Source of the DNA: Rosettibacter firmus
GTDB taxonomy: Bacteria > Bacteroidota > Ignavibacteria > Ignavibacteriales > Melioribacteraceae
Direction of reading: 5' to 3'
Assembly: GCF_036860695.1 (NCBI RefSeq)
Contig: NZ_JAYKGJ010000001.1
Coordinates: 1,488,001 to 1,552,000, forward strand
Length of the DNA: 64,000 bases
A program made the position numbers and the translations under genes. This document shows positions 56,966 to 64,000 of the stretch, in pieces. The notes under the pieces are model-generated. The model was not told the origin of the DNA, made no database searches, and saw nothing but the letters and a program-made list of their open reading frames with translations. Each line of letters opens with the position of its first letter. The stretch's first letter is position 1.

Positions 56966-57856
56966 TTATTTTCCTTTATATGCTCTTTCTATCTCTGCTA
57001 TATTGATTTTTTTTATCTGGAGCATTGCCTGCATAACTCTTTTTGCTTTGTTTGCATCTTTATCATTCAGCATATCAACTAAAATTTTGGGAGTAATCTG
57101 CCAGGATACACCAAATTTATCTTTCAGCCAGCCGCACATACTTTCTTCTCCGCCATCAGCTGTAAATTTATTCCAGTAGTAATCAACTTCTGTCTGGTCA
57201 TTGCAATCAATAATGAACGAAATTGCTTCATTAAATTGGAAATTATGTTCACCGGGTCCATCCATTGCAGCAAATAAATTTCCATCCAGAATAAAATCAC
57301 TGTACATAACAGCATTTTCATTGTCGGGAAATTTATAGATACTTTCTATCTTCGAATTATTGAAAACAGATGTATAATATTTGATTGCTTCCTCTGCTTT
57401 ACCAAAAGCACTATTAACAAAAAGGAGAGATGGAAAAATTTCCTGTTTTATATCACCCTCTGCTAAAATTATCTGCCAGGATAATCCAAATTTGTCTTCA
57501 ACCCAACCGTATTTTTTACTCCAGTCATATTTATTTAATTCCATTAAAACTTTTCCGCCATCAGAAAATTTTTTCCACAGGCGGTCTATTTCAGATTCAT
57601 CTTTTACAAGAATAAAAAAAGAAATTGAAGGATTGATCTTGAATGCAGGTCCACCGTTAAGTGCCAGAAATTTAATTCCAGCTATTTCAAATTCAATTGT
57701 AAGCACACTTCCTTCCGGCTGACCTGAAGCTTGTGAAGATGCTTCATCATATCTGAAAACTTTACCAATCTTTGAATTCTTAAAAATAGATGTATAAAAT
57801 TTAAAAGCGTCTTCAGCATTGCTGTCGAACCATAAACACGAAGTTATTTTTTGCAT
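56966..57856 (-). CDS. Tandem VOC-family protein (PhnB/3-demethylubiquinone methyltransferase-like)
   Basis: A 296-residue protein made of two vicinal-oxygen-chelate domains of the PhnB type (about 1-135 and 136-285). Each has the family pattern: TSCLWFDSNAEDAFKFYTSIF with ...KYGWVEDKFGLSWQII in the first, and LLFVNSAFGKAEEAIKYYTSVF with ...CGWLKDKFGVSWQITP in the second. Many such proteins occur as stand-alone genes of unknown function, sometimes linked to drug resistance. It sits 131 bases downstream of a broken single-domain VOC gene. Confidence 0.88.
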   Translation of the reverse strand: MQKITSCLWFDSNAEDAFKFYTSIFKNSKIGKVFRYDEASSQASGQPEGSVLTIEFEIAGIKFLALNGGPAFKINPSISFFILVKDESEIDRLWKKFSDGGKVLMELNKYDWSKKYGWVEDKFGLSWQIILAEGDIKQEIFPSLLFVNSAFGKAEEAIKYYTSVFNNSKIESIYKFPDNENAVMYSDFILDGNLFAAMDGPGEHNFQFNEAISFIIDCNDQTEVDYYWNKFTADGGEESMCGWLKDKFGVSWQITPKILVDMLNDKDANKAKRVMQAMLQIKKINIAEIERAYKGK

Positions 57857-57987: not shown

Positions 57988-58419
57988 TTATTGTTTTGGA
58001 TAAGTGTAATTTATCATCCACTGTACACCGAACTTATCAGTGATCATTCCGAAATAATCTCCCCAGAATTCATCTTTCATCGGCACAGTAATTTTTCCAT
58101 CTCCCAAAAGACTGTTGAATATTTTATTAGCTTATTTTTTGCTTTCAATATTTATTGTAACATAAAAATTGTTGCCAGAGTTTATATTAAATCCCATCGA
58201 TTCAAGTGCATTGGTTGCCATGAGCATATTTCCTTTACCCATTGGTAATGCTACGTGCATAACTTTGTTTTTATCTTTTTCATTTAGATCTTCAGAGCCG
58301 GATGCATCTTTGAATCTAATTACTCCACCTATAAAATCTCCGCCAAAAACTTTTTTATAAAAGTTAAATGCTTCTTCTGTGTTACCCGGAAAATTCAAGT
58401 ACGGATTAATTGATTTCAT
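57988..58419 (-). pseudogene. VOC-family (PhnB-like) gene interrupted by one in-frame stop
   Basis: The reading frame is otherwise intact from the ATG at 58419 to a TAA at 57988-57990. It opens MKSINPYLNFPGNTEEAFNF and continues FYKKVFGGDFIGGVIRF. A TAA at 58132-58134 stops translation after residue 95 (NIESKK). The same frame then continues ANKIFNSLLGDGKITVPM and ends DKFGVQWMINYTYPKQ, the normal end of a PhnB-like domain of about 142 residues. A single substitution explains the break, so the inactivation looks recent; sequencing error is the alternative. Confidence 0.8.
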
Positions 58420-58979: not shown

Positions 58980-61526
58980 CTAATCTTCTTTCATTGTTGA
59001 AATTAATTCCTCAATACTTTTAAATCTATATTTCTCGAAATTTTTTTGGTCTATTCGTTTAAAAGCCCATTTATTCTTGGTTAATTTCATTGCATCTTCA
59101 CACCACAATTTTGTCCGTTTGTCTTTGTACTCAACGTCTACATCTTCCCTGCCTTTTGTTTCGAGGATCCAATGATTACCATTGTTTAATACTACTACGA
59201 AGTCAGGATAGTAGTGTCTGAGATTTCCTTCTGAATCCCTGTATTCGACAAAGAATCCTATCTTTGGAACGATTTTGGAAAAGGACACAACATCTTCGGC
59301 TTTATCTAAAAATCTGGCAAAATCTACTTCAAAATCATTTTCGCAGGGAACATAGTTGAAGATGCATCGATTTGCAGGGTAAACCATTTTTGACCAAATA
59401 AAAGGTCTTATATCTGAAAGTTTAATAACATCACCTTTTTCTGGTTCTCTTTCTATGAAAGTAAGGTCTTTGAATGTTTCTACAAATAATTTTATTAAAC
59501 TCTCCTGAACCTCTGGAGAACTCAGCTTATAAAGGACTCTTGGATCATCAATATCAACATTCTCATTGAATAATTTTTCTACAACATATTTCTTCACAAG
59601 AGGATAGAAAATAGCGAAGGCTCCCCCGATTTTCAATTGTTTAAGGATCTGGTCAGTATAATAGGCAATAACACTTTTTGGATCCTGAGGAACGGGTAAA
59701 TCCCATTTTCTTTTAATAACTTCCATTCCTTTGAGCACATCAACTGCCACATATTCCATTTCTAATATTTTGTTTTCTAACGGTAGTGAAAGAGATGGAA
59801 GTTTATAAACTTCAACTTCTTCTAAGTGAAATTCCCTTATAAAAATTCTTGGAGAGAGAATGGGAATCTCAATATTCTTGTCCAGCTTGTTTTCATCAAC
59901 AAATATCGTTGTTAAATTGAGTGATTTTTCAGTATCAAATTCAGTAAACTTGATGCCCTCTTGCGCTTCTAATTCTTCAAGAATATCAATCAAGCCAGGT
60001 GGTCCAATAACTTCAAGTGTATTTATTGATTTATCAACATTTGCATCTTCTTCAGGAAACATTTTTCTTAAACCTCTACCAATAACTTGTTCTGGAAGCA
60101 CTTTTCTTTTTGATGTATAAGAACGTAATCCCACAATTACATTAACGTTTCTGACATCCCAGCCCTCGTTTAGCATCAGAGTACTAACTATTGCTTCGTA
60201 AGGATTTTTCTCTGGAGCGGGGTCGTCAATGGTTTTTGCAAATTCTCTTGCTTTAGGTAAATCTGCTTTTTTAATTTCACCTGTGCTGTCTGTATGGATT
60301 AATAATACTTTATTCTTGAGGTCGGGCACGGAATTAACATAATTAAATATCTCGTCTGCCTCTTCATTTTCTGGACATTGAAGAAATAATACGGGTTTTT
60401 TATTCAAGGGTTTAAGTTTTTCTTTATATTCACGCCATCTTCTTATTCCCGCATCAATCCAGGCTCTGTATCTTTCGACTGTCTTCTTAGATGCAATTTC
60501 CTCAGCACCCTTTACAAATCCTTTTAGTGGTAATTTCACGATGTTCATTTCGATGGCTTCTTTTAATGAAAAGTCAACAATGATCCATGGAAATAAAGCA
60601 CCGGTTTCGGTTTTTGGTGTGGCGGTAAAGTCAAGTTCCATGTTGATACCTTTTCCATGCCGGGATGTCAAATTTTTATTAAGTTCTAAAAGAATTTTTT
60701 TCCAAGCTTTTTCAAAACTGTAAATGTGGTGAGCTTCATCCTTCAAGATCATTATATTAGAGCAGGAAGTAAGAACTTCTTTTATTCTGTTTTCTTGATA
60801 GATATTGGAAACATTATAAACAGCAGGTAATTCCATTACTTTATCTACATACTCCTCAACTTCTTTTTTCCTGCTTTGCTTTTCTTCTAACTGCTGAATA
60901 TTGGTCAAAAACAACACAGCTTCTGGAATTATGTGAATCGGGTCTTCTTTAAGAATCACTTTCAGATCAAATTCTTCCTGCCACTCTGGAGGAATAAGCG
61001 TCAATACACGGAATATTTTGCCATCCTTGAAATCCCTTGTTAGTCTGTCATAAATTACGTTTTTTTCTCCTGCAATAAGCAGAAATTTTGAAGTGTAATC
61101 ATTCTTGTTCTCTTTCTTATGATTAAAATACTGCCATACAATACTCAACGCCATAACATAGGTTTTGCCTGAACCTGTCGCCATTTTAAAAGCATAAAGT
61201 GGATACTGATCATAAGAAGGATCGTAGCCTTGAATTGGTCCAGCACCAAAATCCCTTGCCATGTCTATGAAATTTCGTTTTTTCATTACTTCATAGACAT
61301 AAATTAGGGTTTCAATTCCTTCTCTCTGACAGAACCAGAACTGGAATGGCTCCCCATTTACAATATGATCTTCATTGAACCAATATTGAAGTAACCGCTT
61401 TGTCGTGTCAGTCGTGTTAGGATAACCTTGTTCTCGCCAGGTATAAACTGCTTTGCGAAGTTCATTAACCAGATATGCTTTGCTTGGTTGTCTTTGCTCA
61501 GGATGTAAAAGTTCAATCGGTCTCAC
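58980..61526 (-). CDS. SF2 DEAH helicase with C-terminal PD-(D/E)XK nuclease (type III restriction Res-like)
   Basis: An 848-residue protein of the type III restriction-enzyme Res family. Walker A is ATGSGKT (116-122), motif II is DEAH (263-266), motif III is TAT (301-303) and motif VI is QVIGRGLR (480-487). The last 120 residues carry a nuclease core: Glu733, YPDF (Asp775) and LETKG (Glu789, Lys791). It should translocate on and cut double-stranded DNA. No methyltransferase (Mod) gene is present; instead the start lies 10 bases after a Csm3-like RAMP gene. GTG at 61526 is the likely start, preceded by TAGGTGAT. It may act as a Cas3-like effector for the RAMP complex. An independent restriction enzyme that happens to be adjacent is the alternative. 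Confidence 0.88.
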   Translation of the reverse strand: MRPIELLHPEQRQPSKAYLVNELRKAVYTWREQGYPNTTDTTKRLLQYWFNEDHIVNGEPFQFWFCQREGIETLIYVYEVMKKRNFIDMARDFGAGPIQGYDPSYDQYPLYAFKMATGSGKTYVMALSIVWQYFNHKKENKNDYTSKFLLIAGEKNVIYDRLTRDFKDGKIFRVLTLIPPEWQEEFDLKVILKEDPIHIIPEAVLFLTNIQQLEEKQSRKKEVEEYVDKVMELPAVYNVSNIYQENRIKEVLTSCSNIMILKDEAHHIYSFEKAWKKILLELNKNLTSRHGKGINMELDFTATPKTETGALFPWIIVDFSLKEAIEMNIVKLPLKGFVKGAEEIASKKTVERYRAWIDAGIRRWREYKEKLKPLNKKPVLFLQCPENEEADEIFNYVNSVPDLKNKVLLIHTDSTGEIKKADLPKAREFAKTIDDPAPEKNPYEAIVSTLMLNEGWDVRNVNVIVGLRSYTSKRKVLPEQVIGRGLRKMFPEEDANVDKSINTLEVIGPPGLIDILEELEAQEGIKFTEFDTEKSLNLTTIFVDENKLDKNIEIPILSPRIFIREFHLEEVEVYKLPSLSLPLENKILEMEYVAVDVLKGMEVIKRKWDLPVPQDPKSVIAYYTDQILKQLKIGGAFAIFYPLVKKYVVEKLFNENVDIDDPRVLYKLSSPEVQESLIKLFVETFKDLTFIEREPEKGDVIKLSDIRPFIWSKMVYPANRCIFNYVPCENDFEVDFARFLDKAEDVVSFSKIVPKIGFFVEYRDSEGNLRHYYPDFVVVLNNGNHWILETKGREDVDVEYKDKRTKLWCEDAMKLTKNKWAFKRIDQKNFEKYRFKSIEELISTMKED

Positions 61527-61536
61527 TTTTAATCAC

Positions 61537-62397
61537 CTACCCTTTTTGAGTGTCTAATTCTATCAATATTTTCCCTGCACCTTTACTCTTTTGGCCACCG
61601 AGAATAGTTACATTGTTTAAAGCAGGAATCAAAATCTCATTGATTAACAAGAGTTGAGATTCTTCTAAAGGTTTTGAGGCGATTCCATCCAACCAGAGGT
61701 CGACTTTTGTTTCTCCAATCTCTCTTGCCTTACCAAACTGAAGGGTATTTTGTTGCAAAATTATCTCCATAGCGCCCTTAAATATGGTTCCAGGCTTAAC
61801 CTGCTCAGCAGTAACAATTGCTCCAGTTGCTGCTGTGCCGCTCTCTCGGTCTATCCTGATACTTGTTTGGTCTATTCTGAACTCCCCTTCTTCAGGCCAG
61901 AAATTAGGTATCCGAAGGAAACCCATTAAACCTGTGGCACCAAAGAAATAGCAAACAGGGCAAACTCCAATTGGCGTGTCATTTTCTTTTTCTTTTGGTA
62001 TCTCAATTCTATCCTCATCAACCTTTATCTCACAATGGCTGCGATATCCAGATTTGAAGAGCTTCTTTTCCGCATGTGAGGGGCGTGGTGCAGGTATGCA
62101 AGGCTTGAGTAAATTGTCGTCAGATATTTTGAATTTTTCTTTGAGAGAGTTCTTTTGTTTGAGCAGTAACTGCTCTACTTGATATCTAAAAGCTCCTTTA
62201 AAGCTAGATGCAGGTATCGCTGGCTTTCCGTCCACAGAAAAGACTGGAGCCTTCTTTTCCGTAAGTGGCGAAGGACTGCCTCCAATATGGAGGAAGGAAC
62301 CTTCCTGAACGGTTATCTTCAGTGGTATCTGAAGCACTGACAGAACTCCTTGCGTACTCTTTTTCGGCAGACTTTCCATTTTTTCTATGTTATTCAT
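61537..62397 (-). CDS. Csm3/Cas7-like RAMP protein of a type III CRISPR-like complex
   Basis: A 286-residue RAMP-superfamily protein. Landmarks: LHIGGSP (36-42), IPASSFKGAFRYQVEQLL (61-78), CPVCYFFG (146-153), IRIDRESGTAATGAI (180-194) with AEQVKPGTIF, and the glycine-rich LGGQKSKGAGK (266-276). These match Csm3/Cmr4/Csx7-type Cas7 backbones that coat guide RNA. Csm3 cuts target RNA with an Asp just before a PV pair (DNPV-like); here the segment reads EKKAPVF (47-53), with Lys instead of Asp, so RNA cleavage is probably lost. Cys100, 122, 146 and 149 could bind zinc. A very strong GGAGGTGAT ribosome site (62403-62411) precedes the ATG. It overlaps the upstream gene by eight bases. Confidence 0.85.
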   Translation of the reverse strand: MNNIEKMESLPKKSTQGVLSVLQIPLKITVQEGSFLHIGGSPSPLTEKKAPVFSVDGKPAIPASSFKGAFRYQVEQLLLKQKNSLKEKFKISDDNLLKPCIPAPRPSHAEKKLFKSGYRSHCEIKVDEDRIEIPKEKENDTPIGVCPVCYFFGATGLMGFLRIPNFWPEEGEFRIDQTSIRIDRESGTAATGAIVTAEQVKPGTIFKGAMEIILQQNTLQFGKAREIGETKVDLWLDGIASKPLEESQLLLINEILIPALNNVTILGGQKSKGAGKILIELDTQKG

Positions 62398-62959
62398 CTT
62401 TTATCACCTCCATAAATTCTGTTAGTGAATTTAGTTTTCTGATAAAGAATGCAATCTCAAGTATATCAAGATTCATTGCATATAACTCCTTTAGATATTC
62501 TAGTGTTTTTCCAAGTGCCTTCTTCTCAAATTTTTTTGCTTTTTCTATTTTGTATAGGAAGAACTGTTCCACAATGGGGAAGCTGTGATTTTCTATGACC
62601 TTTCCATAGTCTTCCATGTTGGGGAGATTGCATCTTACAATACCGAATTTATCTAAAGTTAAAAACATCTGCTTAAGAAAGTGTGGTTTATTGTTAATAG
62701 CGCTCTTTAATGCGTTGGTTAATTCTATTGAATACTGGAGATTTTTCTTTTGTGTGTCATCCTTTTTCGAGTCGTAATAACTTCTTAGCTCCGCTACCTT
62801 CTGCTCAATCCTCTGAGTTACCTTATCTAATTTATTCTCTGCATATTCTTTCCCAAGATTCTTCCACTCTCGCTCATCAAAAATGGTATAACTGATGTAG
62901 AACACATCAGAATCATTCATCACCCGTCTCATCACATCATCCAGAGTCTTAGTGGTCAT
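62390..62959 (-). CDS. Helical protein of the RAMP operon, possible small subunit (Cas11-like)
   Basis: I do not recognise this 189-residue protein by sequence. It is highly charged and predicted all-helical, with long amphipathic stretches (ENKLDKVTQRIEQKVAEL, LYKIEKAKKFEKKALGKT). Its place between a Cas5-like and a Cas7-like gene is where type III systems encode the small, all-helical Cas11 subunit (Csm2/Cmr5), and its helical nature agrees, though it is longer than the usual 110-150 residues. The ATG at 62959 follows AAGGAGG (62969-62975) and overlaps the upstream gene by 11 bases. The function is inferred from context alone. Confidence 0.6.
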   Translation of the reverse strand: MTTKTLDDVMRRVMNDSDVFYISYTIFDEREWKNLGKEYAENKLDKVTQRIEQKVAELRSYYDSKKDDTQKKNLQYSIELTNALKSAINNKPHFLKQMFLTLDKFGIVRCNLPNMEDYGKVIENHSFPIVEQFFLYKIEKAKKFEKKALGKTLEYLKELYAMNLDILEIAFFIRKLNSLTEFMEVIKDE

Positions 62960-63596
62960 ATCTATATTCCTCCTTGATAAGAATCTCAGGGCCTTCAATA
63001 ATGCTTCCTTCAAATAATGCTTTTTTATACACACCACTCACTTCTGATATTGGATAAAAGAGATATCCCTGACGTCTTTTAATGATCTTGGTTATTCCAA
63101 AATCCCTAAATTCTTCCTCAAGCAAACGCCCTTTCAAATACCCAACTTTATTCTTTGATTTAACTTCACCTATGTATCTCAATTTACATCTGCCAAACCC
63201 TCTGCTCTTTAAGGCGCCAAGAGAAATTTCAGTTGGTAAACTTCTAATAAGTTGTTCTGTGGCATCATTTTTCACTATAAAGATATCCGCTTCCACAGCT
63301 TCTTTGCTACTTGCGGATCTGAGATATTCTAATGAGATTGGCAGTTTTGCAGTTCCTAAAAATGCATCAAAAGGCGCATAGGTAAAAATATCTCTCTCGT
63401 ATGTTTCTTTCCTGAAAAAACCTATCCCTAAAGCATCTGTTAAACCAAAATAACTCCTAAAAGAGCCTTTCAAAGTCGAAGTAGGGATGGTTTCTATGCA
63501 AGGTCGAAACGTACCCCCTTTAATACGCTCCCCAATTGCAATGGCCGGAGTGGTCAATTCTAAATGAATGAATGTGATTTCATTTAGGTCGTTCAT
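62949..63596 (-). CDS. RAMP protein, Cas5/Csm4-like
   Basis: A 215-residue RAMP-superfamily protein. The N-terminal strand-helix motif IPTSTLKGSFRSYFG (37-51) and the glycine-rich loop LGALKSRGFGRCKL (126-139) are RAMP hallmarks. Only one such module is visible, with a C-terminal extension of about 75 residues, which fits the Cas5 group (Csm4, Csx10-like) that caps the 5' end of guide RNA. A Cas6-like or additional Cas7 role is the alternative. No obvious catalytic His is in place for guide processing. Strong AAGGAGG (63603-63609) precedes its ATG. It overlaps the upstream gene by 17 bases. Confidence 0.75.
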   Translation of the reverse strand: MNDLNEITFIHLELTTPAIAIGERIKGGTFRPCIETIPTSTLKGSFRSYFGLTDALGIGFFRKETYERDIFTYAPFDAFLGTAKLPISLEYLRSASSKEAVEADIFIVKNDATEQLIRSLPTEISLGALKSRGFGRCKLRYIGEVKSKNKVGYLKGRLLEEEFRDFGITKIIKRRQGYLFYPISEVSGVYKKALFEGSIIEGPEILIKEEYRYDH

Positions 63597-64000
63597 AGGG
63601 TGCCTCCTTTTTAATTAATTTGTAAAAATTAAGGATTTGTTGAACAGATATACCCTTCTGAGTCAACTCCCATATGGCAGGAAATTTTTTGCGATTATTT
63701 AGTAGTTCTAACTCTACAGTAATGTGGCTTCTTGTCTCCCTTTCAATATCTGCCAGACGGTGTAAGAAATGGCTCAATTTAGAATCTTCTCCACCAATAG
63801 TCTCTCTTAGTAATTTATATCTAACCAAGTCTAAACTAAGTTTTGCACTTCCGGGGCTACGGAGATTAATGGAGTTCTCTGGTTTAGATAAGAACCTCCA
63901 GTGTTCCTGATAAGGATATTTTACTTGTGCAATACTTAGCGATAATTTAATAGGAGAATCTTGCAAGCAATTAGGGAAATAACTCTCCATAAGACTATAA
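63580..64000 (-). CDS. C-terminal part of a probable Cas10/Csx11-like large subunit (partial, runs off the window)
   Basis: The frame is open to the window edge. An internal ATG at 63990 has no ribosome site, so the gene most likely begins beyond the window. The visible 139 residues start with SPIKLSLSIAQVKYPYQEHW, which resembles the last strand-helix of a Cas10 palm domain (xxLSAGIAxxHxKYPxxE pattern), and end in a helical domain (KLSHFLHRLADIERETRSHI) like the Cas10 C-terminal bundle. This matches gene order large subunit-Cas5-Cas11-Cas7. The GGDD cyclase motif and HD domain, if present, would lie outside the window. The identification is tentative. Confidence 0.5.
   Translation of the reverse strand, partial: YSLMESYFPNCLQDSPIKLSLSIAQVKYPYQEHWRFLSKPENSINLRSPGSAKLSLDLVRYKLLRETIGGEDSKLSHFLHRLADIERETRSHITVELELLNNRKKFPAIWELTQKGISVQQILNFYKLIKKEAPYERPK

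Follow-up and report, generated by a model that had tools for sequence, protein, structure and literature searches.

The named locus of CRISPR subtype III-F is Tlet_0097-0100 of Thermotoga lettingae (PMC8036902), where a Cas10 without a cyclase motif is accompanied by a single Cas7, Cas5 and Cas11. III-F Cas10 proteins are described as lacking the cyclase motifs and generally retaining the HD domain (PMC11229360), and most III-F loci lack arrays in the 2025 classification (PMC12669027). Published predictions on DNA cleavage are not unanimous: one paper predicts that the Cas10 proteins of III-C to III-F neither cut DNA nor signal (PMC7192623), while a review predicts DNA cleavage for III-F and enters the subtype as ‘DNA?’ in its table (PMC8036902). 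As of 2020, a review described III-F as still to be investigated experimentally (PMC7694759), and our literature search, which missed most subscription journals, found no later experimental study. Loss of the conserved catalytic Asp of Cas7 has precedents in subtypes III-G and III-H and in type VII; the Palm is inactivated in III-G and III-H too, and DNA cleavage is predicted for both from the lost Asp together with an apparently active HD domain (PMC12669027). The reference point for this Asp is D33 of Streptococcus thermophilus Csm3 (StCsm3), the RNase residue, whose D33A variant is reported as RNase-dead (PMC11040160).

The window analysed here, a 64,000-nucleotide stretch of the Rosettibacter firmus genome, carries a four-gene III-F effector operon (Table 1), a subtype that the first-pass annotation had not named. 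What is new is the setting. The genes are embedded, in overlapping frames, in a type III-like restriction-modification operon, with mod on one side and res on the other. We found this arrangement once, and the same incomplete search of the literature returned no paper on III-F genes housed in such an operon.

Table 1. Features of the III-F genes and of the surrounding operon, in window numbering
Feature	Position	Strand	Basis or remark
res, Res-like subunit (type III-like restriction-modification); SF2 helicase ending in a PD-(D/E)XK nuclease	58980..61526	-	
cas7f, Cas7 (backbone) of CRISPR subtype III-F, 286 aa	61537..62397	-	PADLOC, Pfam, model fold
Loop LHIGGSPSPLTEKKAPVF, residues 36-53 of Cas7f; site of the RNase Asp in Csm3, Asp missing in Cas7f	62239..62292	-	
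Lys49 codon, equivalent of StCsm3 Asp33	62251..62253	-	alignment
cas11f, small subunit	62390..62959	-	PADLOC Cas11f 7.6e-46, residues 29-213
cas5f	62949..63596	-	PADLOC Cas5_IIIf 5.6e-56
cas10f, 3' part in window	63580..64000	-	PADLOC Cas10a|Cas10f (PDLC01558) 1.1e-130, full gene
mod, split	65592-66398 and 67146-68378	same strand as cas genes	outside window

The cas7f reading frame is real: it begins with ATG behind a good ribosome-binding site (GGAGGTGAT). PADLOC returned family matches for all four cas genes, and for cas7f the model Cas7_IIIf (PDLC02150) matches with an E-value of 6.6e-82, so far ahead of the runner-up model, Csm3 (1.2e-19), that we rejected Csm3 of III-A as the identity of the protein. 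Pfam RAMPs matches as well (1.7e-17). Cas7f is 46-48% identical, over nearly the whole length, to a III-F homologue in the archaeon Methanoperedenaceae GB37 (L030), whose Cas5f is 44% identical to ours, and ~24-26% identical to the III-A Csm3 of its own genome (L029). An AlphaFold2 model built on alignment A4 (pLDDT 76.4, pTM 0.77) is grouped by Foldseek and VIA-align with Csm3, type III-D Cas7 and type VII Cas7, with a Foldseek E-value of 4.9e-11 to 8bmw_G and VIA-align Z scores of 13.9 for 8yhe_F and 13.7 for 9g9h_F (175 residues each, at 3.4 and 3.1 A respectively). Family profiles and the predicted fold, compared at the level of residue ranges, thus bear out the first-pass description of a Csm3-like backbone. 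Chains of type VII Cas7 rank high in the structural comparison, although III-G, III-H and type VII have different subunits and are not the family matched here. With the Csm3 of its own III-A locus, Cas7f shares the fold and the HIGG and SSxKG motifs, but that Csm3 keeps the Asp.

The loop in question reads HIGGSPSPLTEKKAPVFSVDGKPAIPASSFKG in Cas7f. Counting along the PDB alignment gives I32-D33-S34-P35-V36 for StCsm3, and other deposited chains, which we take to be S. thermophilus Csm3 as well, have N or A at D33, as is expected of dead mutants. The first-pass annotation had placed the Asp directly before the PV pair; in Csm3 it sits one residue further upstream (D-x-P-V), which aligns it with Lys49 in Cas7f (K49-A-P-V) and with the Lys of K-A-P-I in the archaeal protein. 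Anchoring on the SSxKG side yields K48 instead of K49, a Lys with either anchor; the span from PV to SSxKG is one residue shorter in Cas7f than in Cas7 such as that of L033. Because the fold tools return only ranges, it is from the sequence alignment that K49 is placed with respect to bound RNA.

An Asp occupies this position in all 42 non-III-F Cas7/Csm3 homologues with a readable loop, whereas both III-F proteins (n = 2, Cas7f and that of L030, among the matches listed) have Lys, so the central claim of the first-pass annotation, a missing RNA-cleaving Asp, is confirmed. The context of the Asp is D-x-P-[VIL] in 28 proteins, D-x-[STAG]-[VIL] in 12 and D-x-x-P-[VIL] in two (L034, L048). The 42, a count that takes no account of kinship and includes close relatives (e.g. 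L036, L041, L045), comprise the 27 non-III-F rows of A4, taken from the 32 Cas7 loci among the matches listed in a genome contig scan (at least 591 stretches), and 15 Csm3 proteins of the same class, among them the genome's own III-A Csm3, in which the Asp is kept in GGADATVV. Having been found through a motif adjacent to the loop and similarity to Cas7f, the A4 rows are not biased towards Asp; the 15 proteins found with the Csm3 profile probably are. Left out were L035, a fusion in which the Asp is present, and L051, L054 and L060, which gave no loop match. The loop HIGGSP[ST]PLT[ED]KKAP[VI]F is common to this bacterium and the archaeon. With the RNase Asp gone, binding without slicing is the likelier outcome, and Cas7f probably binds its target RNA in this way.

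The loss is probably not family-wide. We scored single-residue variants of Cas7f against the PADLOC III-F profile, whose seed sequences were unseen. At position 49 the scores were K 106.6, D 106.2, E 105.5, N and Q 105.4, R 104.9, S 104.7, A 104.5 and G 103.9; at position 48 they were K 106.6, R 105.2, N 104.8, A 104.6 and D 104.4. In two-row control models, Asp scored against Lys at -2.9 bits for Lys/Lys, +0.3 for Lys/Asp and +3.2 for Asp/Asp, and only the Lys/Asp model among these three reproduced the pattern at position 49. These scores suggest that the profile mixes Lys and Asp at this position, where Cas7f itself has Lys. As D scores almost as high as K, a loss of the Asp throughout III-F appears unlikely; judging from the scores, some other III-F Cas7 proteins probably keep it, and RNA cleavage may exist in sister members, which would offer natural pairs for testing the effect of losing slicing. 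Other Cas7 models served as a partial control: PDLC01296, 01442, 01017 and 02112 gain 1.6-2.4 bits with Asp at 49, whereas for PDLC01016, 01297, 01014 and 01015 the larger gain comes from Asp at 48, and an Asp at 49 lowers the score of PDLC01016 and 01407.

The partner Cas10f is 671 aa at full length, its gene continuing beyond the window to 65595 in window numbering (L002:11581-13596). The GGDD cyclase motif was found in neither this Cas10f nor that of L030. For comparison we took 26 further Cas10 proteins, the genome's own III-A Cas10 and 25 encoded in the 32 listed Cas7 loci; of these, 25 have GGDD and one has AGDD. The HD motif is reduced: H15-D16, H36 and D87 are present and the HH pair is absent. 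All seven of the 26 that have an HDxG motif carry the HH pair, and the archaeal Cas10f keeps a single His. The absence of the pair makes HD cleavage doubtful in this Cas10f. The archaeal protein (L030:6661-8694) also has an extra cysteine-rich stretch that is missing from the Cas10f of the window.

On one strand, the operon runs from the N-part of the methyltransferase (410 aa) through MNT (108 aa), HEPN (142 aa) and the methyltransferase C-part (268 aa) to cas10f, cas5f, cas11f, cas7f and the helicase-nuclease gene res. The successive junctions measure -4, -4, -1, -4, -17, -11, -8 and +10 bases, so that frames overlap from mod to cas7f and res starts 10 bases after it; the value of -11 presumes that cas11f starts at residue 27 of a GTG ORF (62390-63037), as alignment with L030 suggests. 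The 410-aa and the 268-aa protein each cover their own region of a single profile, MTase_III (PDLC03633; best stretches 20-229 and 364-615 of 616), which shows that mod is split around the MNT-HEPN pair, and both halves match one ORF of 600-922 aa in 14 fetched loci. The domains between the halves, HEPN and nucleotidyltransferase, are Pfam matches. This split (65592-68378; L002:13593-16379) falls at a domain boundary and is a second insertion in the operon; the HEPN has an R-x4-H motif, and the genes there are in overlapping frames. HEPN genes linked to restriction-modification operons are already known (PMC3710099).

Mod keeps the methylase motifs DPPF and DFFCGSGT and shares its operon with Res, which matches Pfam ResIII (4e-15), with RE_endonuc and TnsA-like N matches below cut-off, and has the motifs GSGKT, DEAH, YYPDF and ETKG. 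The pair resembles type III Mod/Res and BPTD_3080 systems in joining a methyltransferase (DPPF, FxGxG) and an SF2 helicase with PD-(D/E)XK in one operon. Unlike in type III Mod/Res, Mod is split by MNT-HEPN and four cas genes stand between Mod and Res, and unlike members of the BPTD_3080 family, this Res scores 288.8 bits (8.4e-86) with NCBIfam restr_BPTD_3080, against a cut-off of 800.

Homologues of res were found at 1e-20 in 42 of 294 genomes of the class, many of them covering the helicase part only. We fetched 18 loci with long matches, in which full-length homologues are 33-41% identical; a methyltransferase lies near the res homologue in 17, the remaining one (L070) being a 3.3-kb contig. 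Eight Cas proteins from the window and L030, used as tblastn queries at 1e-3, had no match in any of the 18 and 16 matches in two control stretches. The helicase-nuclease had been read as fitting a DNA-targeting role; since it is the Res-like subunit of a restriction-modification pair whose homologues in the 18 loci occur without cas genes, its presence adds nothing independent to the case that the Cas complex targets DNA.

In these operons, the space separating mod from res is a slot for varied cargo, here holding a CRISPR effector. The two genes are adjacent in seven loci (L093, L095, L096, L101, L103, L106, and L107 with a gap of ~206 bases), while one to three genes stand between them in 10 of 17 (L092, L094, L097, L098, L099, L100, L102, L104, L105, L108), with the order res, inserted gene, mod in L099, L102 and L105. 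In the eight of these ten loci covered by Pfam (all but L097 and L099), the inserted genes are varied: DUF4145, Schlafen/AlbA (three loci), SIR2-like, IrrE/HTH, DUF4411, KilA-N and an IS200 transposase. The gaps in L092-L108 repeatedly carry unrelated, defence-like cargo and could be mined for new defence genes. In L092 (3430-6081), the res homologue is in two frames with one TAG stop inside the match, and is either broken or recoded.

A script that recovered the arrays of both control stretches detected no CRISPR-like repeats in the window, including the part below 52000, or in its flanks (L002, L003), and the ORFs listed around the operon include no recognisable cas1 or cas6. Elsewhere in the genome, a III-A locus (L029, C1:388000-407999; L109) has an array of 11 repeats and reads by eye as Cas1, CARF proteins, Csm5, Csm4, Csm3, Csm2, Cas10 and Cas6, of which csm3 was confirmed by family search. 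Three genes there look CARF/Csm6-like by eye. The archaeal III-F genes lie beside ORFs that by eye read as type I-B, cas6, cas1 and cas4, and their locus contains a repeat family of 84 members. Given the III-A array, the archaeal repeats and the arrayless state of most III-F loci, it is plausible that the guides of this III-F complex are supplied in trans.

The locus is rare. In the phylum, four of 395 genomes match the III-F profile at 1e-3 (its own at 3.9e-81, the next at 1.1e-11); in the class, four of 391 match the Cas7f protein (next after its own, 1.0e-5); in the order, its own genome is the single match among 164. Only L030, among the 32 loci in the matches listed, also matches Cas10f, Cas5f and Cas11f, and no Res homologue lies within the 20.8 kb read there. 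Viral contigs scanned with a single Cas7, with alignments A1, A2 and A3 and with Cas5f and Cas10f alignments yielded no further III-F locus, nor did tblastn searches of plasmids that used two Cas7f queries, Cas10f and Cas5f. Seen once in the order, the mod-cas-res arrangement could be an isolated insertion.

Our preferred reading, to which we give a probability of roughly 0.55, is that the III-F effector inside the mod-res operon binds without slicing, cleaves DNA through the HD domain of Cas10 and obtains its guides in trans. Cas10f, Cas5f, Cas11f and Cas7f, guided by crRNA, would bind a target transcript or another complementary strand and leave it unsliced. As slicing would not turn the complex off and the cyclase motif is missing, cleavage of DNA by the HD domain would be left as its output, provided that the reduced HD motif still works; the guides would come from the III-A array, and Res would mainly serve its own restriction-modification system. 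If the HD domain is inactive, Res might be the effector instead, or the complex might act by binding alone. The complex might also still slice RNA through another acid of the loop. The first-pass annotation had itself offered D56 as a substitute, which we ruled out because this residue is Gly in L030 and thus not conserved. Conservation of an acid is seen instead at position 47, Glu in Cas7f and Asp in L030 (n = 2), so that the proposal of binding without slicing is probable from the loss of the Asp and yet leaves E47 as a candidate. The strong conservation of the loop and a preference of the III-F profile for E/D over A at 47 by >2 bits speak for slicing by E47 or another loop acid, but E47 is offset from the Asp site by two residues on the upstream side, in a loop of moderate confidence (mean pLDDT 64 at residues 41-50), and the high profile score of Asp at 49 is what one would expect of active members that rely on the usual site. 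We regard continued slicing as quite unlikely.

Cascade recruits Cas3 and type IV complexes use DinG, and by analogy a III-F complex with no working nuclease of its own could recruit the Res of the operon as its effector. Three classical catalytic features (Asp, GGDD, HH) are missing or reduced, Res keeps its helicase and PD-(D/E)XK motifs immediately behind cas7f, and the genes from mod to cas7f overlap on one strand. Such RNA-guided restriction is nevertheless rather unlikely. The res homologues in the fetched loci occur without a cas match, the archaeal III-F locus manages without Res in the stretch read, other cargo in 10 of 17 mod-res gaps means that position alone implies no partnership, and Res already has its own partner in Mod, whose motifs are intact. 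The fuller version of this reading, in which the stripped III-F complex is only a crRNA-guided platform and Res obeys both methylation-dependent and RNA-guided recognition units, we consider unlikely. The same degree of doubt applies to the III-F genes being a decaying passenger of the cargo slot with no current CRISPR function: the reduced motifs, the lack of CRISPR-like repeats in the window and flanks and of a recognised cas1 or cas6 around the operon, and the sole occurrence in the order are consistent with decay, but all frames are open and tightly overlapping, motifs away from the catalytic sites retain their residues, and Cas7f has its 46-48% identity with the protein of an archaeal locus that contains repeats.

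With its RNA-slicing, cyclase and HD features all missing or reduced, this compact four-gene complex can be used to test whether a type III system works by binding alone, and because its genes are flanked by mod and res, a possible connection of restriction-modification with RNA-guided defence is open to direct test. Beyond res, two further genes (56966-57856 and 58132-58419), which by eye look glyoxalase/PhnB-type, lie in a stretch with related repeats (families D1 and D2).
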